From a virus, in IMG/VR virus record IMGVR_UViG_3300034198_008282, positions 1-23,463 of that record: DNA of 23,463 bases; one strand, written 5' to 3'. The translations under genes and the position numbers were made by a program. This document shows positions 124-12,966 of this stretch, one piece after another (position 1 is the stretch's first letter; the number at the start of each line of letters is the position of its first letter). The notes under the pieces were generated by a model. The model did not search any database and was not told the DNA's origin. It saw only the letters and a list, made by a program, of their open reading frames with translations.

Positions 124-444
124 ATGGCACGCACAGTCATCCACGTGAACCAGCACATCATCCGATCCAACTACAAAAAGGGGGAGCGGCATCCGGTCTT
201 GACGGTCAAGAGCAAAGGCAGCAATATCTATGCCCACGAGGCCGTCATCAACGGGCCGTGCCGCATCGTGTATTCCCCGGACAAGCCGCTGCCGTGCGGC
301 GCACGGGTTTGGATTGAGACGGAATCTGCGGTCACACTAAACGTGGAGGAAGATCGTGAAGATCAGAGACAGGATCAAGGAGTTGAGGCGTGTCAAAGCC
401 AGCGAGTTGCTGCCGAATCCCAAGAACTGGAGGACGCACCCTAA
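124..444 (+). CDS. Small conserved hypothetical protein
   Basis: A 106-residue reading frame beginning MARTVIHVNQH. The first ~73 residues have the look of a small conserved family that I have seen in bacteria and phages without a known function: beta-rich, with the signature VVYSPDKPL-CGARVWIET here as RIVYSPDKPLPCGARVWIET. The last ~33 residues, after position 345, are very polar (EEDREDQRQDQ...) and are simply another frame of the start of the next gene, so the native protein may once have stopped near residue 74. ATG 124 was chosen because the conserved part starts there; an in-frame GTG at 88 is possible. Neither has a good SD. It overlaps the ParB-like gene by 89 bases, unusually long for this genome. 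Confidence 0.6.
   Translation: MARTVIHVNQHIIRSNYKKGERHPVLTVKSKGSNIYAHEAVINGPCRIVYSPDKPLPCGARVWIETESAVTLNVEEDREDQRQDQGVEACQSQRVAAESQELEDAP
335..346 (+). repeat. 12-base direct repeat, right copy
   Basis: Second exact copy of CACTAAACGTGG (first at 80-91). Its last two bases begin the GGAGGA SD sequence (345-350) of the ParB-like gene that starts at GTG 356. Confidence 0.45.
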
Positions 445-1009
445 GTCGCAGCAGGATGCCCTGCGGGGCGTGCTGTCGGAAGTCGGTTTTGCGGACGCTG
501 CGATTGCCCGGGAGTTGCCGGACGGGAGCCTCATGCTCATTGACGGACACCTCCGGGCGGAGACGGCGGCGGACGCCAACGTGCCCGTGCTTGTCCTTGA
601 CGTCACGGAGGCTGAGGCAGACAAACTGCTGGTCACTCTGGACCCGCTGGCTGCGATGGCCGACACGAATGCTGAGGCACTTGAGTCGGTCTTGGGGGAA
701 GTCGAGACAAACAGCGAGGCAGTGTCAGAGATGCTGTCCCGTCTCGCGCACCGGGCGGGCTTGTTCCTTGAGGGGGCCGGTCAGTCTGACGAGGCGGAGC
801 CGGGTGAGTCGGATGACGGACCGGCGGAGGAGGAGTCTGCTGAACCGGCCGGGGTTCGGATGGTTCAGTTGTTCCTTGATGAGACAAACATTGAGGAGTT
901 TCAGGACCGGACTGCCCGGTTGGCGGAGGAGTACGAAACCAGCAACCTGACCGACACGGTACTGGAGGCGGTGCGGCGTGCAAGTCTACACCTGTACGAC
1001 CAAGATTGA
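356..1009 (+). CDS. ParB-like (ParB/Srx fold) domain protein
   Basis: 217 residues. The N-terminal ~90 residues match a ParB/sulfiredoxin-fold domain: VKASELLPNPKNWRTHP (residues 13-29), then the signature LMLIDGHLRAE (about 59-69), then LVLDVTEAEADKLLVTLD (about 78-95), as in phage ParB-like nucleases and adaptor proteins. The second half (about 130-217) is acidic and low in complexity (DEAEPGESDDGPAEEESAEP), with a helical C-terminus. The GTG start at 356 has GGAGGA (345-350) five bases upstream. The 3' end overlaps the next gene by 32 bases. ParB-like proteins are known companions of phage base-modification operons (Iyer, Aravind and colleagues' comparative genomics), and this gene heads such a cassette. 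Whether it cuts DNA, hydrolyses CTP, or guides modification cannot be told from sequence. Confidence 0.85.
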   Translation: MKIRDRIKELRRVKASELLPNPKNWRTHPKSQQDALRGVLSEVGFADAAIARELPDGSLMLIDGHLRAETAADANVPVLVLDVTEAEADKLLVTLDPLAAMADTNAEALESVLGEVETNSEAVSEMLSRLAHRAGLFLEGAGQSDEAEPGESDDGPAEEESAEPAGVRMVQLFLDETNIEEFQDRTARLAEEYETSNLTDTVLEAVRRASLHLYDQD

Positions 1010-1856
1010 GGCGGATGACCTTGCGGGCGTCCACCTTGATGAATCCCACTACGACGTCTTGGTGGGAGGAGATGAGGCCGCGGACATCTTCAAGCCGGAC
1101 GGCACGCCGCTGGTTCGCTACCGCCCCGGGTGGTTTGACGCGGAGTTGTGCGCGTCGGTCCTGCCCGCCTGTCGCAAGGCTGCCAAGCCAACGCAGAACC
1201 GGGGCACAGCCGCCGGAGACATGGGCAACGGGGAGGAGAAGTTCAGACGGGCCAAGGACGGCAAGATCAGCCACACCAAACGGATCAAGCCGGTCAACAG
1301 CGGGATCATCGGCTACTTTGATCGCAGCGTCCGGACCCCGTACTGCCGCCAGACTTCATTCCTAATCAACTCCGCGGCACACTGGAGGCGGTTTCTGCCG
1401 TACATCGTCAAGGCCGATGAGGGGCTGAAGGCACTCATGCCTGACCGTTGGGAGGCTCAGCGGCAGTACGCTGACCGGACGGCGGAGGATTGGCTGATAC
1501 CGGAAAGCACGTTCACGACGGTGACCGTCAACCGCAACTTTGCGACCGCAACGCACAAGGATGCCGGTGACCTCAAGGCCGGTTTCGGTGTGCTTTCGTG
1601 CCTCCGCAACGACAAGTACGAGGGTGCCCACCTTTGTTTCCCGGCCTACCGGGTTGCCGTTGACCTTGGGCACGGCTGCCTCTGCCTTGCGGACGTCCAT
1701 GAGTGGCACGGCAACACCGCGTTCCGGCAGATCAAGGCCGGGTACGAGCGTGTCACGCTGGTGTTCTACTACCGTGAAAAAATGGTCCGCTGCCTGCCTG
1801 TCGCGGAGGAAGTCGAGTGGGCCAAGAACCGCCGCCGCGGGGAGCCGCTGAAATAG
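978..1856 (+). CDS. TET/JBP-type 2-oxoglutarate/Fe(II) DNA base dioxygenase
   Basis: 292 residues. The C-terminal half has the double-stranded beta-helix signature of TET/JBP enzymes, which oxidise the methyl of thymine or 5-methylcytosine in DNA. Visible residues: H193-x-D195 (TATHKDAGDLKAGFG) as iron ligands; GAHLCFPAYRVAVDLGHGCL (217-236); the distal histidine in HEWHGN (most likely H244); and R258 in ERVTLVFYYREKM, expected to bind 2-oxoglutarate. The N-terminal ~100 residues are a variable extension. The GTG at 978 has GGAGG (964-968) nine bases upstream, and the gene overlaps the ParB-like gene by 32 bases. Phage TET/JBP members are known to make hydroxymethylated bases that are then decorated further. 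The substrate here could be thymine or 5-methylcytosine; no methyltransferase or hydroxymethylase gene lies in the window. Family assignment is by motif recognition, not a database search. Confidence 0.85.
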   Translation: MQVYTCTTKIEADDLAGVHLDESHYDVLVGGDEAADIFKPDGTPLVRYRPGWFDAELCASVLPACRKAAKPTQNRGTAAGDMGNGEEKFRRAKDGKISHTKRIKPVNSGIIGYFDRSVRTPYCRQTSFLINSAAHWRRFLPYIVKADEGLKALMPDRWEAQRQYADRTAEDWLIPESTFTTVTVNRNFATATHKDAGDLKAGFGVLSCLRNDKYEGAHLCFPAYRVAVDLGHGCLCLADVHEWHGNTAFRQIKAGYERVTLVFYYREKMVRCLPVAEEVEWAKNRRRGEPLK

Positions 1857-1859
1857 CGA

Positions 1860-1907
1860 CCCCCCCGGAGTTGTGAGATTCAAGTTTCAAACAAGTGTTT
1901 TCGTGGG
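1860..1907 (+). repeat. C-run/18-mer dispersed repeat, copy 1
   Basis: Seven Cs, then GGAGTTGTGAGATTCAAG, then a short hairpin-capable segment (AAAC-AAGT-GTTT) and CGTGGG. It fills nearly all of the 58-base gap between the TET/JBP gene and the next gene, the largest gap in the left operon. Its 3' end merges into GGGAGA (1905-1910), the likely SD for GTG 1915. Other copies: 8690-8737, 8787-8812 and, inverted, 23377-23424. Confidence 0.85.
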
Positions 1908-1914
1908 AGATAGC

Positions 1915-2943
1915 GTGGTAGCGGACTGGAGGCTGAACCGCCGTGAGGGGTTTGACCTGTTCTACCGGTTCCACTGCGAGAGCAACGATTGCTCCCCGGA
2001 CTTGGCGGTTGAGCGGTGGATGGCCGATGAGGGCGGGTTTGACTTTGAGAAGCGTTGCGTCATGGCACTTTTCCATGGAGCAACCTACGCTGGCCCGTGT
2101 GAGTCGATGTTCGCAGACCGGTTCCCGCGTCTCACCTCTGACGTTTCGGGGCTGGTCGCATTCTTCAACCGGGAGAAGCGGCGGCTGCTGTTCAGCCCCG
2201 ACTGCAAGTATCGCAAGATGGTTTTCCCGCGGTTCCTTGAGTCGGTCGGGCAGTCGGTCGCGGCATACGGCACGCTGGGCAAGTTCATCACGGATTGCTT
2301 TGGCTCCGCGGACCCCAAGGTGAACTATCTGCGGCTCAAGGCTCAATGCCAGTCCGTCTGGTACCACTGGGGCAGGATGGGGCACTGGTGTTTCTCTGAG
2401 GCGTTGGCGCGGCTGGTGGACGCCCCGATAGAGGCGGCTGACATGGAGTTCAGCGACGGGGCCAGCCACCGGGCCGGGTGGGCTTTCTGCATCGGGCGCG
2501 ATGACCTGACGGGTGATCGCGTCTCCGCCGCGGACGTCCGGATGCTTGAGCGGACGGCCGCGGAGTACCTGAGCGGTCTTGACTTCCCGCGGGCTGACCG
2601 GTTCACTCTTGAAACCGCATGCTGCAACTACAAAAGGCAGCACCGCGGGAGTCGGTACGGCGGCTGCTACATTGACGAGCAGTACGCTGAGACGGTCCAG
2701 ATGATGACCGACTGGCCTGAGTACGGATGGCTTTGGGAGAAGTACCTTGAGGGGCGGCTGGCGGTGCTTCCGCGGTCGCTGCTGTTTGAGTTGAGCGGGG
2801 AGAAGCCTCCCGCATATCGCAAGGACTGGAACCGGTCGATGCAGAAGTACGGCCGGATGCCGCGGGTTGAGGCTTGGGCGTCCGGGGAGGCCCAACGCTG
2901 GTGCAAACTGGAGGACGTTTGTGGACGCCAAGCAAGTCAATAA
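1915..2943 (+). CDS. 5-hmdU DNA kinase helical / aGPT-Pplase-type hypermodification protein
   Basis: 342 residues, predicted mostly helical. I recognise the pattern of the phage family annotated as 5-hmdU DNA kinase helical domain or alpha-glutamyl/putrescinyl thymine pyrophosphorylase: RREGFDLFYRFH (about 9-20), the helix with ALFHGATYAGP (51-61), DGASHRAGWAFCIGRDD (181-197), ETACCNYKRQ (233-242) and GGCYIDEQ (249-256). Family members act on 5-hydroxymethylpyrimidine-containing DNA, in steps after base phosphorylation that attach an amine or amino acid; which step this protein performs is not settled by sequence. GTG 1915 is preferred: GGGAGA ends four bases upstream. An upstream in-frame GTG at 1873 lies inside the dispersed repeat with an SD too close to use. 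It is sandwiched between a base oxidase and a P-loop kinase, which supports the role. Confidence 0.72.
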   Translation: MVADWRLNRREGFDLFYRFHCESNDCSPDLAVERWMADEGGFDFEKRCVMALFHGATYAGPCESMFADRFPRLTSDVSGLVAFFNREKRRLLFSPDCKYRKMVFPRFLESVGQSVAAYGTLGKFITDCFGSADPKVNYLRLKAQCQSVWYHWGRMGHWCFSEALARLVDAPIEAADMEFSDGASHRAGWAFCIGRDDLTGDRVSAADVRMLERTAAEYLSGLDFPRADRFTLETACCNYKRQHRGSRYGGCYIDEQYAETVQMMTDWPEYGWLWEKYLEGRLAVLPRSLLFELSGEKPPAYRKDWNRSMQKYGRMPRVEAWASGEAQRWCKLEDVCGRQASQ

Positions 2944-4000
2944 GTTCATCGCCCAATACGCCAAGGGCTACCAAGGCGGTCAGTTTGCCGCACCGCTGCC
3001 CAAGGAGTTGGAGGCCAATCCGGGTGCCGTGCTGGAGGCGGAGGGGTTTGTTGCGATCCGCAAGACGCTGCCGCGGGGTTCCTCCCGCAAGGACTTCACC
3101 GGGCGGGCGTACAAACTCCCGCCGGGGGCGTCCGTCCTGACTCACGTTGCCCGGGAGCCGGGTGCCGCGCTTCCCCGCTGGGTTGGGCATTACAACTACG
3201 TCTACACCTACGTTGAGGACGGTGAGTTGTCTGACCAGATGCGTCAGGCCGGTTGGAAGGTCAAGGCATACCGCGTCTCCGCCACGAGTGAAATCATGGC
3301 TTGCTGGTGCCGCGCGGAGGAGCCGCCGCTGCCGATCAGCGTGGCGGACTTGAGGACGTTCACCCGCCTGAACATTCCCGTGCCCGTCGCTGCGTTTGAG
3401 GCGGAGTTGGCATCGGTGGACTGCTGGCACGATGACTTCCCCTATTACTCTGACGGAACGTGGTCAGCCGTGTCGATACGGGGCTACAAGCAGGATGACC
3501 CAAGGTGGGGCGTGAAGCCGTCAGAGATGCCGCAGAAGTGGCGTGACGAGCATCCTGATGACCTCAACCTGAAGTGCGACTGGACCGTGCTTGCAAGCCG
3601 CACCCCCAAAATCCGCCAGTGGGTTGAGCAGACGGTCGGGGGCGGGGAAGTCGAGCGGGTCAGGCTGTTCAGGATGACCGCCCGGAAAGACAAGGACGGG
3701 AAACTGGGGCGGCACAGCGACATTCAGGATCAGGACGTTGGGACGCGGGACGGGATGCTTGCCCGTCTCCACATACCGATCAGGACTCACCCTGACATCA
3801 AGATGACCGTTTGGGACTTGGACGGCAACGAGCGTTCCGCCCATCTCGCTGCCGGGGGCGTCTACTACCTTGACACCCGAAAGCCGCACAGCGTCCAGAA
3901 CAAATCAGACGTTGACCGCGTTCATTTGGTGGTCGATTTGGTGGTCACGCCAGAGGTTCGGGTCAGGCTGATGGAGTCAGAGGAGGTGGCAGCGGGATGA
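2921..4000 (+). CDS. Asp/Asn beta-hydroxylase-like 2OG dioxygenase with unassigned N-terminal domain
   Basis: 359 residues. Residues from about 155 to 359 match the aspartyl/asparaginyl beta-hydroxylase branch of Fe(II)/2-oxoglutarate oxygenases: WHDDFPYYSDGTWSAVSIRG, then GRHSDIQDQD with H265-x-D267, RLHIPIRTHPD, YYLDTRKPHSVQN with distal H323, and R333 in DRVHLVVDL for 2-oxoglutarate. The first ~140 residues (FVAIRKTLP..., GHYNYVYTYVEDGEL, SATSEIMACWCRAEE) form a separate domain that I do not recognise. GTG 2921 is chosen because GGAGGA (2910-2915) sits five bases upstream; an in-frame ATG at 2867 lies deep inside the preceding gene. It overlaps that gene by 23 bases and its stop overlaps the kinase start (ATGA). 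It likely tailors either the modified base or a protein partner; the substrate is unknown. Confidence 0.75.
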   Translation: MDAKQVNKFIAQYAKGYQGGQFAAPLPKELEANPGAVLEAEGFVAIRKTLPRGSSRKDFTGRAYKLPPGASVLTHVAREPGAALPRWVGHYNYVYTYVEDGELSDQMRQAGWKVKAYRVSATSEIMACWCRAEEPPLPISVADLRTFTRLNIPVPVAAFEAELASVDCWHDDFPYYSDGTWSAVSIRGYKQDDPRWGVKPSEMPQKWRDEHPDDLNLKCDWTVLASRTPKIRQWVEQTVGGGEVERVRLFRMTARKDKDGKLGRHSDIQDQDVGTRDGMLARLHIPIRTHPDIKMTVWDLDGNERSAHLAAGGVYYLDTRKPHSVQNKSDVDRVHLVVDLVVTPEVRVRLMESEEVAAG

Positions 4001-4560
4001 AAACTCTCACGTACATCATCGGCCAGCCCGGGGCCGGAAAGACAACGCTGATGAACGCCATCTGCAAGGGGGCGTCAACCCTGTACACCGCGGACTCCCC
4101 GGTTTCTCACCGCGGCATGAAGGGTCCGCACGGCCTGTTCAGCGTGCTTGGCAAGGACCGGCACCCGTTCGGCGGGACGGATACGATGTCACACGCGGCC
4201 GCGGGAAACTGCGAGGCATGGGTTGAGGAGTTGTCGCGATGTGCGGCGGGCGGAGTCGTGTTTGGGGAAGGGGACAGGCTGGCCACCAAAAGGTTCCTTG
4301 CCGCTGCGCGGGTCCACTACCGCGTGCTGGTGTTCTACCTTGACCTTGACGATGCGGTTGCCGCGGAGCGGAGGGCCGTCAGGGCTGAGGAACACCGCCT
4401 GAAGCAACAGAGTGCGTCTTGGGTCAAAGGCCGCGTCACCAAGCACGCGAACTTGGCCTTGGCAGAGTCGGCCGTTAGGCTTGATGCTAGGCAGCCTGCT
4501 GAGGAGAACGCACTGCTGGTGTGGAGTGAGGTCAATGGGAAAACGCGGACCACCGCCTGA
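3997..4560 (+). CDS. P-loop nucleotide/base kinase, probable hydroxymethyl-base DNA kinase
   Basis: 187 residues. Walker A is G9-QPGAGKT near the N-terminus. A conserved GTD (60-62) follows in FGGTDTMSHAA, then VVFGEGDRLA (87-96) as the Walker B/core strand region, then LVFYLDLDDAVAAERRAVR and a basic lid QQSASWVKGRVTKH (127-140). This matches the small phage kinases that phosphorylate 5-hydroxymethyl pyrimidines in DNA so that the phosphate can be displaced later. ATG 3997 overlaps the previous stop, so translation is probably coupled. The 3' end overlaps the small terminase gene by 26 bases. A generic phage nucleotide kinase is the alternative, but the flanking hypermodification genes favour a DNA base kinase. 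Confidence 0.75.
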   Translation: MKTLTYIIGQPGAGKTTLMNAICKGASTLYTADSPVSHRGMKGPHGLFSVLGKDRHPFGGTDTMSHAAAGNCEAWVEELSRCAAGGVVFGEGDRLATKRFLAAARVHYRVLVFYLDLDDAVAAERRAVRAEEHRLKQQSASWVKGRVTKHANLALAESAVRLDARQPAEENALLVWSEVNGKTRTTA

Positions 4561-5038
4561 GCCGTCAATCCTGCGGTACATACGTGGGAACCCAAGCAAG
4601 ACTCCGCTCAACCCCGGGGAGCCAACCCCGGACTTGATGCCGCAGGGGGCGGAGCCTCCGGCTTGGCTTGAAGGCGTTGCCCTTGAGAAGTGGCACGAGA
4701 TTGTCCCGGTCTTGGCCGCGATGCGGGTGATGACCGTGGCGGACCGGGAGACGATTGCGAGGTACTGCGCCCTGTGGGAGCAGTGGAAGAAAAACTACGA
4801 CATCGTGAAACGCGGGGCGGACGTCATCATCGGCCGGGACGCGGCCGGTGAAGTCAAGTACATGCAAGTCACCCCGTATGCCAGCCAGATGACCAAGATT
4901 GCTACGCTTTTGCTCCGGATTGAGCAGGAGTTTGGCCTAACGCCAAGCAGCCGGTCTCAAGTCACAATCCACGGGAGCAGAGACGATGACCCACTTGCCA
5001 CGTTTGCCCAAAAGCGCAGCCGCGGAACAGGGGCTTGA
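4535..5038 (+). CDS. terS: Terminase small subunit, P27 family
   Basis: 167 residues beginning MGKRGPPPEPSILRYIRGNP, the usual N-terminus of P27-type small terminases (K-RGP-P-P--L-LLRGNP), followed by PPAWLEGVALEKWHEIVPVL, ADRETIARYCALWEQW and a C-terminal helix LLRIEQEFGLTPSSRSQV. It recognises phage DNA and feeds it to the large subunit. ATG 4535 starts the conserved block; longer in-frame extension upstream would run within the kinase gene and has no family similarity. It overlaps both neighbours, consistent with a tightly coupled operon that links the modification cassette to packaging. Confidence 0.9.
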   Translation: MGKRGPPPEPSILRYIRGNPSKTPLNPGEPTPDLMPQGAEPPAWLEGVALEKWHEIVPVLAAMRVMTVADRETIARYCALWEQWKKNYDIVKRGADVIIGRDAAGEVKYMQVTPYASQMTKIATLLLRIEQEFGLTPSSRSQVTIHGSRDDDPLATFAQKRSRGTGA

Positions 5039-6593
5039 GCATTACTTCAACGAGGAAAAGGCAGCCCACGTTGTCGAGTTTTTCAAGCAGTTTCTCAGGC
5101 ACTCAAAGGGGCGGTTCGCCAACAAGCCGTTCACCCTCCTCCCGTGGCAGCAGACGTTGCTTGAGGACTTGTTCGGCTGGGTGAGGGTCAGCGATGACTT
5201 GCGGCGGTTCCGGGTCGCGTACATCAGCACCGCCAAGAAGTCAGGGAAGTCAACCCTGTTGTCTGGAGTCGGGCTGTATTTGCTGACGGCTGACGGTGAG
5301 CAGTCTGCGGAAATCTACTCCGCCGCGGCTGACCGCGACCAAGCAGGCATCGTTGCCCGTGAGGCCATGAACATGGTCCGGGCGTCTCCGTCCCTTGCCC
5401 GGTCCCTTGAGGTTGTCGAGTCTCGCAAGACGATCACGCACCGCCGTTCATCATCGTTCTGGCGGGTGCTGTCCGGAGACTCATTCCGTGCTGAGGGTTT
5501 GAATATCCACGGGTTGCTGTTCGATGAGTTGCACACGCAGCGTGACCGGCGGCTTTGGGATGCCTGCCGCTACGGCGGTGCCGCCCGGGACCAGAGTTTG
5601 CTCATCAGCATCACAACCGCAGGCTATGACCGAAACTCCATTTGCTACGAGCAGTACGAATACGCCAAGGCGGTTGAGCGGGACTGGCGGCATGACCCGC
5701 AGTTCTACCCCTGCATCCACGAGACGCCCGCTGATGCGGACTGGGCAAACCCGGAGAACTGGCCCAAGGCCAACCCGTCTTGGGGAGTGACGATTGACCC
5801 CGCGGACTTTGCCGCGGACTTCCGCGAAAGCCTGCGGAGCAGCACCAAGGAAAACTCATTCCGCAGATACCGCCTCAACCAGTGGACGCAACAAGACACA
5901 CGTTGGATAAAAATGGAGGCTTGGGCGGGATGCAAAAGCCTGCCCCCGGGGCCGCTGGACGGCCGTGAGTGCTTTGTCGGTCTTGACCTTGCGACCACCT
6001 TTGACACCTCTGCGATGGTTGCCGTGTTTCCGGCGGAGGACGGGACGTTTGATGTCCTTGCCCGGTTTTGGATACCCGGTGACAACGCGATTGAGCGGGA
6101 GCGGCGGGACGGAGTGCCATACGCACTCTGGTCGAATGACCCCAAAAATGGGCTGTCCCTGACGGACGGCAACGTGACGGACTATGACGTAATCCGCCGT
6201 GATGTGGTTGCTTTCGGGCAGAAATACAACGTCCGGCAAATAGCCATTGACAGATGGAACGCCACCCAACTTGCCATCCAACTTCAAGGGGAGGGGTTCG
6301 ATGTGGTAGGGTTTTCGCAAGGCGTCGGTGCGATGTCGCCTCCAAGCAAGATGCTTGAGAACCTGATAGCCACCGGGAGGCTCCGCCATGACGGCAACTT
6401 AGTGCTGTCTTGGATGGCCTCAAACGTCTCCGTCAAGGTAGACTCCAACGACAACATCAAGCCGATCAAGCCTAAGCCGGGGTCACCTCAACGCATCGAC
6501 GGAATCGTGAGTCTGGTCATGGCACTTGGGGCGTTCACGGCCAGCCAGAAAACACAAGTGGGCACGCCAGAACCGGGCATGATTTTCATATGA
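4986..6593 (+). CDS. terL: Terminase large subunit (ATPase-nuclease)
   Basis: 535 residues, the usual length for the HK97-type large terminase. The ATPase half shows an adenine-binding region LLPWQQTLLEDLFGW (51-65), Walker A STAKKSGKST (81-90), Walker B LLFDE (D180, E181) and the coupling motif ISITTAG (208-213). The nuclease half (RNase H fold) shows D334 in FVGLDLATTFDTSAMV, D422 in AIDRWN and D505 in RIDGIVSLVMALG, a plausible metal triad. It translocates DNA into the prohead and cuts concatemers. The ATG lies inside the end of the small subunit gene, 53 bases before its stop; its own stop overlaps the portal start. Confidence 0.96.
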   Translation: MTHLPRLPKSAAAEQGLEHYFNEEKAAHVVEFFKQFLRHSKGRFANKPFTLLPWQQTLLEDLFGWVRVSDDLRRFRVAYISTAKKSGKSTLLSGVGLYLLTADGEQSAEIYSAAADRDQAGIVAREAMNMVRASPSLARSLEVVESRKTITHRRSSSFWRVLSGDSFRAEGLNIHGLLFDELHTQRDRRLWDACRYGGAARDQSLLISITTAGYDRNSICYEQYEYAKAVERDWRHDPQFYPCIHETPADADWANPENWPKANPSWGVTIDPADFAADFRESLRSSTKENSFRRYRLNQWTQQDTRWIKMEAWAGCKSLPPGPLDGRECFVGLDLATTFDTSAMVAVFPAEDGTFDVLARFWIPGDNAIERERRDGVPYALWSNDPKNGLSLTDGNVTDYDVIRRDVVAFGQKYNVRQIAIDRWNATQLAIQLQGEGFDVVGFSQGVGAMSPPSKMLENLIATGRLRHDGNLVLSWMASNVSVKVDSNDNIKPIKPKPGSPQRIDGIVSLVMALGAFTASQKTQVGTPEPGMIFI

Positions 6594-8689
6594 TCGCCAA
6601 CAGCAGGATTTTGTGGCTCCCCAACGGCTATGAGGAGCGTGGGGATTTTGCTTGGGACGATGCCCCGTCAGGGTCAAGCCGGAATCCCGCCGGGGTTCGG
6701 ATTGACCCTGACACAGCCGTGCAATCGACGGTCGTGCTGGCCTGTGCAAGAGTGCTTGCGGAGTCGATTGCTTCCCTGCCTCTGCACCTTTACCGGCGGA
6801 CCACGGACCGGTCCGGCAAGGCAATCGCCCGGGAACACCCGCTGTACCGCCGTCTGCACACCGCACCCAACTCTTGGCAGACCAGTTTTGAGTGGCGTGA
6901 GCAGCAAGTTTTCTGGCTGGCACTTTGGGGCAACTCGTACAACGAAATCCGCCCGGGTGCCGCCGGAGCCGTGGATGAACTTTGGCCGCTGCACCCGTCT
7001 CGCATGAAGGTGGAGCGCGTCGAAAACGGCAGGCTCCGCTACCGGTTCCGCGACGAAAAGGGCACTGAGGTCATCTACAGCCAAGACCAGATCATGCACA
7101 TTCGCTGGATGAGCGATGACGGGATCAACGGCATGGTGCCTGTGGAACTGGCCCGGGACGCCATTGGTCTGGCCCGCGCCTGCGAGATTCATGGCGCCCG
7201 GTTTTTTGGCAACGGTGCCCGCCCGGGGGTCGTGCTTGTCACGCCCAACGAGATGAAGTCAGAGGCCGCTGCCCAACTCCGCGACAACTGGGAGCGGATG
7301 CACCGCGGGGCAGACCGCTCCAACCGGACTGCGGTACTCACGGGCGGTCTGGACGCCAAGGAGTTGACCGGCGCAAGCAACCAAGAGGCTCAGTTCCTTG
7401 AGACGCGACGATTCCAGATTGAGGAAATCTGCCGCATTTTCAGGGTTCCCCCACATTTGGTCGGTGACCTGACGCGGTCAAGTTTCAGCAACATTGAGCA
7501 GCAGAGTATTGACTTCGTGCAGCATTCGCTGCTGCCTTGGCTCCGCCGATTTGAGACTGCGTTTGAGCGGGACTTGATCACGGATGAGACGTTGTTCGCG
7601 GAGTTTGACACCCGCGGGTTCCTCCGCGGGGACGCCACGATGCGTGCCGCGTACTACCAGACCCTCTACAACCTTGGCGTTGCGTCGATCAACGAAATAC
7701 GCGGGTGGGAAAGCCTTGACCCCGTGGAGGGCGGGGACGAAAGGTTTGTGCAACTCAACATGCAGACCCTCACCGCCGCTACGGCTGCGGCTGCCCCCCC
7801 GCCCCCGCCCCCGCCCCCGGAGCCTGCCCCGGAGGCACCACCGGAGGAAGCATCGTCACGGTCGGACAGCCCGGTTGTCGTTGAGGAGGTTTCCATCCCG
7901 TCCCTCAACGGCGGGCAAGTGTCCAGTCTGCTTGAGATTTTGAGTCAGGTGACCGCGGGCAACCTGAGCGGAGACGGAGCCAAGGCAATCATCGCGGCTG
8001 CGTTCCCAAGCATCAGCGGCAGCCTAATCGAACAGATTGTGGCGGGGCTTCCGGTTTCCCCGAATCAGGGGCTGGCGACCCGCGCACGCCCCGGCACTGT
8101 GTCCACCGGGGACTTTGTTTCTTGGGGCGCGAATGACAGCCGCGCCCGCGGGAAAATCCAGAAAATCGTGACCGATGGCAAGATCAACGTGCCTGATTCA
8201 TCGTTTGAGATTGAGGGCACAGAGGATGACCCCGCCGCGCTGATTGCCGTGTACGAGAAAGTCGAGGGAGGCTGGCGAGAGACGGACACGAAAGTGGCAC
8301 ACAAGGTTTCAACGCTGACCAAGATTGACCCGCTGGAGATTGCGACGGACTCCGGGCGCAAGATGATGCGGGCGGCTTTGATGATCGCTAAGGAGTCGCG
8401 GTCCCTGACCGTGTCGATTGACTTTGACGGGACGTTTGCGGCGGACCCCGCGATGTGGACTGAGTTTGTCCAGTCATGCCGTGAGGCGGGCAACAACGTC
8501 CTAATGATCACGAGGCGGGAGGACACCCCGGAGAACCGGGAACACGTGAGCCGCGTGCTGGGGGAGGCGGAGCCGCTGCTGGACACGATCATCTTCGCGG
8601 GTCTTGGCAAGGCCAAGAAGCAGGCCGCGGAGGAGGCCGGAGTCAGCGTTGACATTTGGATTGACGATGTGCCAAGCACTGTCGGCTGA
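6590..8689 (+). CDS. Portal protein with Tudor/KOW-like and HAD phosphatase-like C-terminal extension
   Basis: 699 residues, far longer than a usual HK97 portal (about 400-450). Residues 1-390 are a standard portal: AVQSTVVLACARVLAESIASLPLHL (43-67), FFGNGARPGVVL (205-216), RFQIEEICRIFRVPPHLVGD (284-303), NIEQQSIDFVQHSLLPWL (301-318). Then comes a proline-rich linker (403-420, eight Pro in a row), a helical stretch (434-490), a small beta segment GDFVSWGANDSRARGKIQKI (507-526) that resembles Tudor/KOW-like domains, and a C-terminal HAD-superfamily domain. The HAD motifs are D611-F-D613-G-T, T641 in LMITRR, K674 and D692-D693 in IWIDDVP. No frameshift is needed. The extension could be internal cargo, an enzyme displayed at the portal, or a part cleaved off by the protease. 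Confidence 0.92.
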   Translation: MIANSRILWLPNGYEERGDFAWDDAPSGSSRNPAGVRIDPDTAVQSTVVLACARVLAESIASLPLHLYRRTTDRSGKAIAREHPLYRRLHTAPNSWQTSFEWREQQVFWLALWGNSYNEIRPGAAGAVDELWPLHPSRMKVERVENGRLRYRFRDEKGTEVIYSQDQIMHIRWMSDDGINGMVPVELARDAIGLARACEIHGARFFGNGARPGVVLVTPNEMKSEAAAQLRDNWERMHRGADRSNRTAVLTGGLDAKELTGASNQEAQFLETRRFQIEEICRIFRVPPHLVGDLTRSSFSNIEQQSIDFVQHSLLPWLRRFETAFERDLITDETLFAEFDTRGFLRGDATMRAAYYQTLYNLGVASINEIRGWESLDPVEGGDERFVQLNMQTLTAATAAAAPPPPPPPPEPAPEAPPEEASSRSDSPVVVEEVSIPSLNGGQVSSLLEILSQVTAGNLSGDGAKAIIAAAFPSISGSLIEQIVAGLPVSPNQGLATRARPGTVSTGDFVSWGANDSRARGKIQKIVTDGKINVPDSSFEIEGTEDDPAALIAVYEKVEGGWRETDTKVAHKVSTLTKIDPLEIATDSGRKMMRAALMIAKESRSLTVSIDFDGTFAADPAMWTEFVQSCREAGNNVLMITRREDTPENREHVSRVLGEAEPLLDTIIFAGLGKAKKQAAEEAGVSVDIWIDDVPSTVG

Positions 8690-8813: not shown

Positions 8814-10013
8814 ATGCCGTACTCAATCCAAAAGTCGGACTCATGCCCGGAGGACCGGCCATACGGAGTGGTCAAGGACGATGACGGCCGGGTGATGGGC
8901 TGTCATTCCAGCGAGGAATCCGCTGCCAGCCAAGTCGCTGCCCTGTACGCTGCTGAGTCAGACGAGGCGGAGGGGCGTGCCAAGTACGACCACATTGACT
9001 TCAAGCCTCCGGACGGCGTGCGGGAGGAGGCAGCCCGCGGACTTGAGTGGCGGCGGGAGTACGGCCGCGGCGGCACGGCGGTCGGTGTCGCGCGGGCCAG
9101 AGACTTGAGCAACGGAGTCAACATCAGCGGGGACATCGCACGCAGGATGAAGGCGTACTTTGACCGCCACCAGTCTGACGATCAGGGCGAGGGATGGTCA
9201 CCCGGTCAGGACGGATTCCCGTCAGCGGGAAGGGTGGCGTGGGCTTTGTGGGGTGGCTCCCCGGGCTGGTCTTGGTCACAAAAACTTGTTAGGCAGATGG
9301 AAGCGGCTGACCGCGACTCAAGGAGCGTTGTGATGAGCAATCTGGAATATCGCTGCATCGGCATCGACGGCGGACCGGCAGACTGCCTGCGCGTCGAGTC
9401 TCGCAGTGAAGTCATTGAATCCAATGGCGAAAAGCGCGAGCAGACCCGCGACTGGATCGTGGGGTATGCAGCCTTGTTTGGCGTGGACAGCCTTGACCTT
9501 GGGGACTTTGTGGAGCGCATCGACCCGGGGGCGTTCTCCATCGTCAAGGAGCGGCGTGGCCGCAAGCGTCCGCTGGAGACGCGGGCACTTTTCAACCACG
9601 ACCCCAATCACGTGTTGGGGCGGTTTCCTGAAACCCTCCGGATGACGATTGACGAGCGTGGGCTGCGCTACGAGGTTTTGCCGCCAGCCTCCCGGGCGGA
9701 CATCGTTGAATCCATAAAGCGTGGTGATATTCGCGGCAGTTCATTTTCATTCACCGTGGCCCCCGGCGGGGAACGCTGGTCAGACGAGGGCGGTCGGTCG
9801 GTCCGGACGATCACTGCGATTGACTCCTTGTTTGACGTTGGTCCGGTCACGTTCCCTGCCTATCCAGAGTCTCACGCATCCGTCGCAAGGCGGTCTTACG
9901 ATGACTTCATCAGCGGGCGTCGGGAGACGGTCCGCCGCGGTGTTGCCGCAGCGGAGCGGCTGGCGTCAAAGCGGACTGAGGTTGAGCGGTTCCTGCGGGA
10001 GCGTGGCCGATGA
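8814..10013 (+). CDS. Prohead protease (S78/HK97 type) fused behind two accessory domains
   Basis: 399 residues. Residues 1-47 form a short domain (CPEDRPYGVVKDDDGRVMGCHSSEESAASQVAALYA) of a type common beside phage head proteases. Residues 57-165 match a separate phage domain (FKPPDGVREEAARGLEWRR, GVARARDLSNG, AYFDRHQ, GRVAWALWGG-PGW). From 174 onward lies the protease: IVGYAALFGVDS, RIDPGAFS, then NHDPNHVLG with H262 and DIRGSSFSF with S310 as the likely catalytic pair, and GPVTFPAYPESHASVARR. It should mature the capsid and trim the scaffold part of the major capsid protein. An internal ATG at 9333 (residue 174) has a strong SD (9320-9325), so a 226-residue protease-only product is also plausible. 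Confidence 0.92.
   Translation: MPYSIQKSDSCPEDRPYGVVKDDDGRVMGCHSSEESAASQVAALYAAESDEAEGRAKYDHIDFKPPDGVREEAARGLEWRREYGRGGTAVGVARARDLSNGVNISGDIARRMKAYFDRHQSDDQGEGWSPGQDGFPSAGRVAWALWGGSPGWSWSQKLVRQMEAADRDSRSVVMSNLEYRCIGIDGGPADCLRVESRSEVIESNGEKREQTRDWIVGYAALFGVDSLDLGDFVERIDPGAFSIVKERRGRKRPLETRALFNHDPNHVLGRFPETLRMTIDERGLRYEVLPPASRADIVESIKRGDIRGSSFSFTVAPGGERWSDEGGRSVRTITAIDSLFDVGPVTFPAYPESHASVARRSYDDFISGRRETVRRGVAAAERLASKRTEVERFLRERGR
9320..9325 (+). promoter_or_regulatory. Internal SD before in-frame protease start
   Basis: AAGGAG lies seven bases before an in-frame ATG at 9333, exactly where the prohead protease domain begins (MSNLEYRCIGIDGG). It is a better SD than the one at the annotated start at 8814. 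It suggests the protease is also, or mainly, made as a separate shorter polypeptide. Confidence 0.6.
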
Positions 10014-10219: not shown

Positions 10220-10270
10220 GCTTTGAGACAGACGCGGACGGGACCGCAAACACAAGACAAGGAGACTGCC

Positions 10271-11641
10271 GTGGCTTCGCAAGTCAAGATGCTGCTGGAT
10301 GAACTCGCCAAGGTGCTGGCGGAGATGGGTGCCCTTGAGGAGACGCCCAACGCTGACGAGGCTACCGGTGAGGCCGCGCCGATGACTGAGGAGCAGGAGG
10401 CCAGCCTGCGGTCGCTGGAGGTCAAGGCCGACAAACTGCGTGAGCGCATTGCGTTCCATGAGCGTCTTGCCGCCAAGGAGGCGGAACTGCGGTCCGTTCT
10501 GGAGAAGGGTGCCCCCGCCAAGGTGATCAAGGCCGCTGAGGCCAAGGAGGATTCGGTGGAGAATCGTCACTTTGCCGTCCCCAAGGCCCACCGCCCGCTG
10601 CGGGCTTTCGTTGGCCCCAACGCGGAGGAGCGTGCGTTCCGCGCCGGGATGCACCTCAAGGCCACTACGTTCAACGATGCTGAGGCCCGCCGTTGGTGCG
10701 CGGACCACGGCGTTGAGTCGCGCACTCAGTCCAGCGGCGTGCTGTCGCTGGGCGGTGCCCTGACGAGCGATGAACTGATGACGGAAATCATCCGGCTGGT
10801 GGAGGAGTACGGGGCGTTCCCGCAGTACGCCCGCCGCCTGACGATGAGTGCCGACACCATGATCGTCGCCCGCCGGACCGGCGGACTTTCTGCCCGCCCG
10901 GTCGGGGAAAACAGCGAGGTCAGTGCGTCTGACGTCACTTTCGACAACGTGGAACTCAACGCCAAGATTTGGGGAATCGCCAACCGCGTCCCCAACTCCT
11001 TGCTGGAGGATTCCGTGATTGACCTTGCGGACCTGATGGCTGTCGAGACGGCCCAAAGTTTCGCGGAGTCTTTCGACAACTCCGGTTTCGTTGGTGACGG
11101 CACCTCTGCCTACCACGGCACGGTTGGCATTTGCCCCAAGATTCTCCTTGCTGCCCACAGCCGGAGCGTTGTTGCGGCTGCCGCGGGCAACCCGACGTTT
11201 GACACCCTCGACCTGACGGACTTCACCAACACGGTGGCCCGCCTGCCGGTTTATGCCCGCCGGAATGCGGCTTGGTACATCAGTCCGGCTGGCTACGGCT
11301 CCTCCATGCTCCGGCTTGCGATGTCCGCTGGCGGCGTCAGCACGCAAAACATTGAGGGTGGTTTCGGCAACACGTTCCTTGGCTTCCCGGTCCGGCTGGT
11401 TCACAGCATGGAGTCGGACCTGACGGGGACGGCCGGTGAGGTGCTGTGCCTGTTCGGTGACATGGCTCAGGCTGCGACGTTCGGAGAGCGGCGTGCGGTG
11501 AATATCCGGACGGCCAGCGAGCGTTACATTGAGTACGATCAGACCCTTACGTTTGCCACGACCCGCGTGGCGATGGTTGTCCATGACCTTGGATCGACCA
11601 CGGTTGCCGGTCCGCTGGTGGCACTCAAGGGCACTGCCTGA
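10271..11641 (+). CDS. Major capsid protein, HK97 fold
   Basis: 456 residues. Residues 1 to about 120 are helical and highly charged (LLDELAKVLAEMGALEE, LRSLEVKADKLRERIAFHERLAAKEAEL), as expected for the HK97-type delta (scaffold) domain that the protease removes. The HK97 core follows: SSGVLSLGGALTSDELMTEI, ARRTGGLSARPVGENSEV, NAKIWGIANRVPNSLLEDS, FDNSGFVGDGTSAYHG, WYISPAGYGSSMLRL, GFPVRLVHSME, ERRAVNIRTASERYIEYDQT. GTG 10271 was chosen because AAGGAG (10259-10264) lies six bases upstream; an in-frame start at 10223 has no SD. It forms the icosahedral shell. Confidence 0.95.
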   Translation: MASQVKMLLDELAKVLAEMGALEETPNADEATGEAAPMTEEQEASLRSLEVKADKLRERIAFHERLAAKEAELRSVLEKGAPAKVIKAAEAKEDSVENRHFAVPKAHRPLRAFVGPNAEERAFRAGMHLKATTFNDAEARRWCADHGVESRTQSSGVLSLGGALTSDELMTEIIRLVEEYGAFPQYARRLTMSADTMIVARRTGGLSARPVGENSEVSASDVTFDNVELNAKIWGIANRVPNSLLEDSVIDLADLMAVETAQSFAESFDNSGFVGDGTSAYHGTVGICPKILLAAHSRSVVAAAAGNPTFDTLDLTDFTNTVARLPVYARRNAAWYISPAGYGSSMLRLAMSAGGVSTQNIEGGFGNTFLGFPVRLVHSMESDLTGTAGEVLCLFGDMAQAATFGERRAVNIRTASERYIEYDQTLTFATTRVAMVVHDLGSTTVAGPLVALKGTA

Positions 11642-12234: not shown

Positions 12235-12966
12235 GTGCTTGTGAAGATTGGTGACACTGAGGCTGACGTCCGGGTTGAGGCCGTGATGTCCACCCCGCGG
12301 CTGGGGTTCATGGACAACTTTGCCTGCTGGATTGAGGCATTGGTGCCGCTGGGAATCCGCCCCACCAAAGTCACCGGGGCGTTTTGGGGGCAGTGCCTCC
12401 AGCGGGTCATCACGGACCGCATGGACAAGGCGGAATATATCCTCACCATCGACTACGACACATTTTTCACCAAGCAGGACGTTGAACTGCTGTTTGCGAT
12501 GGCGATGACGTTCCAGTGCGATGCCCTGACGGGGTTCCAGAGCAAGCGTGATGACGGCAGGCCGATGATCACGCTGCTGGGAACGCAGGACGCCCCGCCG
12601 GAGGAAGGCAAGTCAACGGTGCCAGCGGAGTGGTTTACCCATGCCGTTCAGGAGGTTGACGCGATTCACTTCGGGCTGACGGTCATCAGCACGGCCGCGC
12701 TGCGGAGGACGCCCAAGCCGTGGTTCATCGACGTCCCCAACAAAGATGGAGAGTTTGGGGAGGGCAGGACGGACGCGGACATGTATTTCTGGCGGGCGTT
12801 TCGGCAAGCCGGAAACCGAGTTTTCATCACCCCCCGCGTCACGCTGGGGCATGGCGAGTACAAGATTACTTGGCCCGGAAAGAACCTTGGCCCCGCCGTC
12901 CATCAAAATCCGATAGACTTCCTGAGCAGCGGAAACAAGCCGGAGGGCGCGTGGAGGGTTGAATGA
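12235..12966 (+). CDS. GT-A-fold glycosyltransferase-like protein
   Basis: 243 residues with a nucleotide-sugar transferase layout: an N-terminal strand region (VEAVMSTPRLGFMDNF), helix, then a DxD motif D73-Y-D75 in YILTIDYDTFFTKQDVELL, an acceptor-side segment AIHFGLTVISTAALRRTPKPWF (143-164), an acidic patch DGEFGEGRTDADMYFWRAF (171-189), and LGHGEY with H206. The DxD would hold a metal and nucleotide sugar. GTG 12235 has AGGAGG (12223-12228) six bases upstream, and a strong hairpin precedes it. It sits between head and connector genes, so it could glycosylate virion proteins; because the phage also appears to hydroxymethylate bases, sugar transfer to DNA is another option. Sequence alone does not decide. 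Confidence 0.75.
   Translation: MLVKIGDTEADVRVEAVMSTPRLGFMDNFACWIEALVPLGIRPTKVTGAFWGQCLQRVITDRMDKAEYILTIDYDTFFTKQDVELLFAMAMTFQCDALTGFQSKRDDGRPMITLLGTQDAPPEEGKSTVPAEWFTHAVQEVDAIHFGLTVISTAALRRTPKPWFIDVPNKDGEFGEGRTDADMYFWRAFRQAGNRVFITPRVTLGHGEYKITWPGKNLGPAVHQNPIDFLSSGNKPEGAWRVE

Follow-up and report, generated by a model that had tools for sequence, protein, structure and literature searches.

The portal gene of an uncultured phage, recorded in IMG/VR as IMGVR_UViG_3300034198_008282 (the 23,463 nucleotides analysed here are termed the window), encodes in a single frame an HK97-type portal protein and a C-terminal tail that ends in a HAD phosphatase-type domain. The same fusion recurs in many relatives, the active site of the HAD is constrained, the module is swapped between the portal and the prohead protease, and the E-x-R tripeptide at its seam matches the maturation site of the major capsid protein. 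The explanation that best accounts for these features, and to which we give slightly better than an even chance, is that the HAD is portal-borne cargo that would be clipped off, packaged and injected. How phages select and load the enzymes that they inject is poorly understood outside the T4-like and giant phages, and the arrangement described here suggests a rule that can be read from sequence, namely that the maturation motif flanks the cargo, whose carrier is the portal or the protease. If true, injected phage enzymes could be sought by sequence in metagenomes, their processed ends could be predicted to the residue, and the known virion-borne enzymes would gain a phosphatase.

The open reading frame at positions 6590-8689 (+ strand, as for all parts of the gene given below) encodes 699 amino acids with zero internal stops, confirming the unbroken frame reported in an initial annotation of the window. 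Residues 1-397 (6590-7780) form the portal core, which is a normal portal, as that annotation had it, of the HK97 gp3/PF04860 type (PF04860 at residues 48-374, E 1.8e-109; phrog_12, E 5e-118). The alignment with HK97 gp3 spans the entire core and stops at about residue 400, where the proline linker starts, and residues past this point are therefore regarded as an added tail. The tail is composed of the previously noted eight-proline linker (residues 403-410, 7796-7819), a short helical segment of the LNGxQ...AAFPxI type (residues 433-492, 7886-8065), a Tudor-like domain (residues 500-580, 8087-8329), the seam motif E602-S603-R604 (8393-8401) with a predicted cut at R604↓S605 (here and below, an arrow marks the bond in question), and a cap-less HAD phosphatase-type domain (residues 605-699, 8402-8686). 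On direct reading the helical segment is single or repeated in the tails of relatives, and a purpose-built hidden Markov model matched it in 90 open reading frames. The Tudor-like domain is related to Hva1_TUDOR: PF11160 matches residues 507-553 at 18.6-20.5 bits (E 5e-4 to 2e-3), under the Pfam gathering cut-off of 24.1, and the predicted fold of the region resembles Tudor/SAWADEE-type domains (Z ~6). Because the profile score is below the cut-off and the fold is Tudor-type, we name the domain Tudor-like only, in agreement with its first description. Pfam and PHROG scans of the 699-residue protein yielded no match to a MuF domain.

The C-terminal domain is almost certainly a HAD. It matches phrog_4919 and phrog_4256 (E ~1e-18), and the AlphaFold2 model of the domain alone (95 residues, pLDDT 91, pTM 0.79) adopts a Rossmann-like core without a cap insertion, with a short link between motif I and a helix; the model of residues 491-699 is also confident (pLDDT 87). 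The fold predicted for the C-terminus is that of a HAD, so the concern that it might be something else does not apply. Motif I comprises D611-F-D613-G-T615 (8420-8434), motif II T641-R642-R643 (8510-8518), motif III the lysine K676 (8615-8617) and motif IV D692-D693 (8663-8668). In a non-redundant alignment of 35 HAD copies, from which conservation was read, D611, D613, T615, R643, K676 and D692 are invariant, position 641 is Thr or Ser, and D693 is kept in >90%. The initial annotation had correctly placed D611, D613, T641 and D692/D693, but its lysine, K674, must give way to K676, the one conserved in the 35 copies. Pairs of HAD sequences have dN/dS values of 0.03-0.35, indicative of purifying selection, and the conserved residues make it quite probable that the domain is an active phosphatase.

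The top solved fold for the 491-699 model is the phosphatase domain of T4 Pnkp (Z 10.5; next unrelated entry 8.6), which also ranks first, by a narrow margin, for the HAD-only model (Z 10.2; next 9.2); the best solved-structure matches to the latter are mostly HAD phosphatases. The superposition on T4 Pnkp (rmsd 2.3-3.2 over 95-98 residues) denotes likeness of fold only, and a relationship to T4 Pnkp (PseT) by sequence is unsupported (hhalign probability 1-4%; HMMER E 0.013, three sequences). The HAD does have clear relatives by sequence in rV5- and 4MG-like phages, where they are small proteins encoded by separate genes (phrog_4256/phrog_4919). A sequence search of solved structures with the HAD returned only a designed protein (E 2e-4), no Pfam match to the window HAD reaches cut-off, and its relatives give only weak, scattered Pfam and NCBIfam matches. 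Cap-less HADs often use macromolecular substrates. Our guess for the substrate, made from the missing cap and from the likeness to the T4 Pnkp 3'-phosphatase domain as the closest of the solved folds, is a macromolecule, perhaps a nucleic acid with phosphorylated ends, although the specific assignment to nucleic-acid ends is tentative and, on present evidence, rather doubtful.

Scans of viral contigs identified 158 relatives of the portal and >500 of the HAD, of which the best 80 of each were retained. Portal-HAD fusions in one frame are present on dozens of independent contigs, and L006, the closest relative that has this region (portal 91% identical), also carries the HAD in frame. A few relatives (L197, L003, L085) have a stand-alone HAD gene nearby, which might favour a sequencing or assembly error that merged the portal with a neighbouring HAD gene, the flaw against which the initial annotation had cautioned. 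However, the many independent in-frame contigs exclude such an artefact as well as chance, and selection acts across the HAD frame; we effectively discount this explanation. Among the tblastn matches listed from 50,697 phage records, no portal-HAD fusion was found in cultured phages, and the HAD matches listed are small separate genes.

The HAD is a mobile module, swapped between portal and protease. Its arrangements include portal-HAD, portal-HAD-Tudor, portal-Tudor-HAD (as in the window), protease-HAD, HAD-protease and separate genes. Exactly one HAD is present in each of the distinct HAD-bearing loci with a whole portal and protease (61/61); its carrier is the portal in 40, the protease in 20 and a separate gene in one, and never both proteins. 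The portal tree requires at least 13 changes of HAD location, and the presence of the HAD differs even between portals that are 93-97% identical. These distributions bear on an alternative in which the HAD stays on the mature portal and has its function at the packaging vertex, where it might trim DNA-end phosphates during packaging or ejection, while the Tudor-like domain holds DNA or terminase. Such a role would agree with the in-frame fusion to the portal, with a nucleic-acid 3'-phosphatase as the nearest solved fold and with the Lys/Arg-rich ends of many HAD tails. Yet one third of loci have the HAD on the protease, and it can also be separate, so the portal position is not required; close relatives do without it; and, as discussed next, its seam is cleavage-like. 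We therefore consider this alternative quite unlikely, and the twelve-fold tethering of an enzyme at the DNA entry vertex, as first envisaged, is probably not a lasting state.

The tripeptide E-x-R lies directly ahead of modules of three types, the HAD, the Tudor-like domain and a cysteine linker, and also before the HAD on proteases. It is present in 42/68 seams (7-residue zone; 49 non-redundant tails), a density of 8.8 per 100 residues. Portal cores have 1.12 and the remaining tail sequence 0.24, making the motif ~37-fold denser at seams than elsewhere in tails; the next residue is Ala or Ser. At portal-HAD seams, the Arg is in place in 30 of the 32 distinct sequences and is displaced by one residue in the other two, and Ala or Ser follows. 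A corresponding motif is found in the capsid proteins of the clade, where 32 members have an acidic-x-Arg positioned exactly nine residues ahead of the GGxLV arm, and where the K103↓S104 bond of HK97 gp5 aligns with E-x-R↓A/T (with E-x-[KR]↓A in distant relatives). In HK97 gp5, an N-terminal scaffold domain of 103 residues is removed (PMC10275583). The sites in the window read KESR604↓S in the portal, VESR167↓T in the capsid (E165-S166-R167↓T168 at 10715-10723, + strand, aligned with HK97 gp5 K103↓S104) and AEGR55↓A in the protease. On the simplest reading of these sequences, one protease would recognise both the capsid site and the tail seams, and cleavage at the HAD seam appears likely. Of the fates that the initial annotation had offered for the enzyme, removal by the protease is the best supported, because the HAD is also found on the protease or as a separate gene and because the seam motif matches the capsid maturation site. 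A position matrix built from 21 capsid sites ranked a seam first in 11 of 64 portals against 1.3 expected, a real but weak signal, as the matrix had also learned capsid-specific neighbours.

Frequent swapping of modules, and the position of the motif at their seams, might also be expected if E-x-R were a recombination scar that is inherited with the swapped cassettes and never cut. However, the codons for the seam Ser and Arg differ between relatives while the E/S/R residues are kept, which argues for selection on the protein and not on DNA. The motif is, moreover, common to three module types, scarce inside modules and matched to the HK97-aligned capsid maturation site, and we regard a scar as very improbable. 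An internal translation start yielding a free HAD was also considered and rejected, as Shine-Dalgarno matches at the seam barely exceed background and a start codon is missing at this place from many fused copies.

The portal and the prohead protease both enter the procapsid in HK97-type phages. We propose that in this phage and its relatives the 3' end of the portal gene encodes a modular cargo tail. Attached to the C-termini of the 12 portal subunits, the HAD, here with the Tudor-like domain, would be carried into the procapsid, and the fusion would set its dose at 12. The S78 prohead protease would cut the E-x-R↓A/S seams, here R604↓S605, and release a ~10-kDa enzyme inside the head, where the Lys/Arg-rich ends of many HAD tails could hold the fragment on packaged DNA. 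The freed enzyme would then be packaged and injected with the DNA, and might serve as an early host-takeover or counter-defence phosphatase. As a module on the portal or on the protease would in both cases be carried in and clipped to the same enzyme, the two positions would be interchangeable and exclusive. That the HAD is packaged and injected is, on balance, somewhat probable; injection and an early host-directed role are inferred from analogues, namely the portal-fused domains and the virion-borne enzymes reviewed in PMC5512222 and PMC9503650. For the broader proposition, that the portal serves a widespread group of uncultured phages as a polyprotein-like carrier, its C-terminal tail holding interchangeable enzymes set between copies of the maturation motif, with the prohead protease freeing injected cargo and acting as the alternative carrier, we see an even chance.

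The HAD might instead act only in procapsid assembly, serving as a regulatory phosphatase or contributing to the internal core, and be removed with other protease products. Both of its carriers are procapsid proteins, and E-x-R seams would suit this account, but the tails share their place with effector enzymes (Zeta, ADP-ribosyltransferase) and not with assembly factors, and the HAD comes and goes between near-identical portals; we judge a role confined to assembly unlikely. Several points must nevertheless be set against clipped and injected cargo. The HAD is absent in 34 of 45 loci from the portal scan and is therefore optional, not essential. Approximately one third of seams are without E-x-R, including the Tudor seam of the window (ATR↓A) and several protease-HAD seams, and the p-values for the motif overstate its significance because it was noticed before the zones were chosen and because the rows are related. 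Cleavage, virion retention, injection and phosphatase activity are steps that we infer, and the fragments, once clipped, could be degraded or escape from the head.

The fusion is not unique, and is one member of a family of modular portal tails. Sister tails extend up to ~1,400 residues and carry Zeta_toxin (E 2e-20, 8e-26), ADP-ribosyltransferase exoenzyme (4.5e-10) and DRAT-like domains as well as HExxH motifs, and their modules are often preceded by a cysteine-containing linker. This linker, C(G/P)TGxGGxxxxNxC, recurs between portal tail and effector domain in 33 loci and is possibly a metal site or spacer. In three loci (L007, L013, L238), HExxH C-terminal domains located behind the cysteine linker appear metallopeptidase-like by eye; that of L007 has no Pfam match. 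Lys/Arg-rich C-termini (e.g. KPKRSRRKKK) are found on about half of HAD-bearing portal tails (L025, L026, L048, L179, L213 and others).

Fusion of enzymes to portals is itself already known, 2H, PBECR and InPase having been described on the portal (PMC5512222) and Nudix on MuF, the portal or the capsid-processing peptidase (PMC9503650); we found no earlier account of a HAD in this position or of a maturation motif at the seams between modules. The polyvalent proteins and portal-MuF effectors (Iyer et al. 2017, PMC5512222; PMC9503650) likewise place enzymes on the portal, MuF or the maturation peptidase, include Zeta, ADP-ribosyltransferase and metallopeptidase-type domains (here in sister tails), and have been proposed to be packaged and injected; as in those systems, the enzyme domains described here are fused to a head protein and interchangeable among relatives. 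In contrast, no HAD phosphatase appears among the domains of the 2017 text (0 occurrences of either 'phosphatase' or 'haloacid'), and the seams here carry the capsid-maturation motif, of which we found no description for portals. No report of clipped portal tails was found in the literature searched, a body that most subscription papers lay outside. MuF polymorphic toxins (PMC5576092) also combine a head-module protein with exchangeable C-terminal effectors, whereas here the carrier is the portal itself, with no MuF domain. Removal of head-protein extensions by the prohead protease has precedents in the cleaved portal propeptide of SPN3US/phiKZ and the capsid-targeting sequences of T4 (PMC5694885); however, those extensions are N-terminal and their cleavage sites have Glu as the last residue (A-x-E in SPN3US), while the modules described here are C-terminal, swappable and marked by E-x-R. 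The phosphatase domain of the T4 polynucleotide kinase/phosphatase (PseT), the nearest solved fold, shares the DxDxT, motif II and DD motifs with the HAD here, but the latter is much shorter, has no kinase domain and shows no significant sequence kinship. The small HAD-like proteins of phrog_4256/phrog_4919 (rV5-, 4MG- and SSE121-like phages) are sequence relatives with the same motifs, yet are encoded alone among small genes (in 4MG, adjoining a MazG-like gene) and are not head-protein fusions.

In this 23-kb virus record, the head genes follow the order terminase, portal, protease, capsid. The terminase large subunit (4986-6593; PF20441 E 7e-41, PF03354 E 4e-28) is encoded directly 5' of the portal, and the prohead protease (Peptidase_S78, 8814-10013; PF04586 E 5.6e-32) and the major capsid protein (10223-11641; PF05065 E 4e-31) lie 3' of it, all on the + strand. 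At its N-terminus (8814-9390) the protease bears an extra domain, phrog_2859 (pattern 'YDHIDFxPP...GRGGTxVGxARARDL'), with AEGR55↓A preceding it; this domain is a separate gene in L167, L171 and L198, and E-x-R precedes it in many cases.

The region 5' of the terminase (978-4560) encodes a Tet_JBP oxygenase (E 6.5e-25), an amino acid:DNA transferase, ADDT (3.1e-14), an Asp/Asn-hydroxylase-like protein (9.7e-7) and P-loop nucleotide kinase 3 (4.1e-21), likely a DNA base hypermodification set, and the DNA of this phage may contain hypermodified bases. A nucleotide-modification-associated domain 1 protein is encoded at 22412-22894, with a match just under cut-off. A link between the HAD and DNA-modification genes was considered and rejected: among the eight HAD loci with >4.5 kb 5' of the portal, ADDT or the P-loop kinase is present only in the window, and TET in only 2/8, a small sample. 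As regards the host, the best cellular relatives of the portal are on contigs of Planctomycetota metagenome-assembled genomes (65% and 54%), but the HAD was found in only 1 of 392 Planctomycetota genomes. Between the capsid and head-tail genes, positions 12235-12966 hold a possible glycosyltransferase-like gene, recognised by eye, with a weak phrog_1574 match and no Pfam match. At the left edge of the window (356-1009) is a ParB-like gene, relatives of which are found near head genes in ~19 fetched loci.

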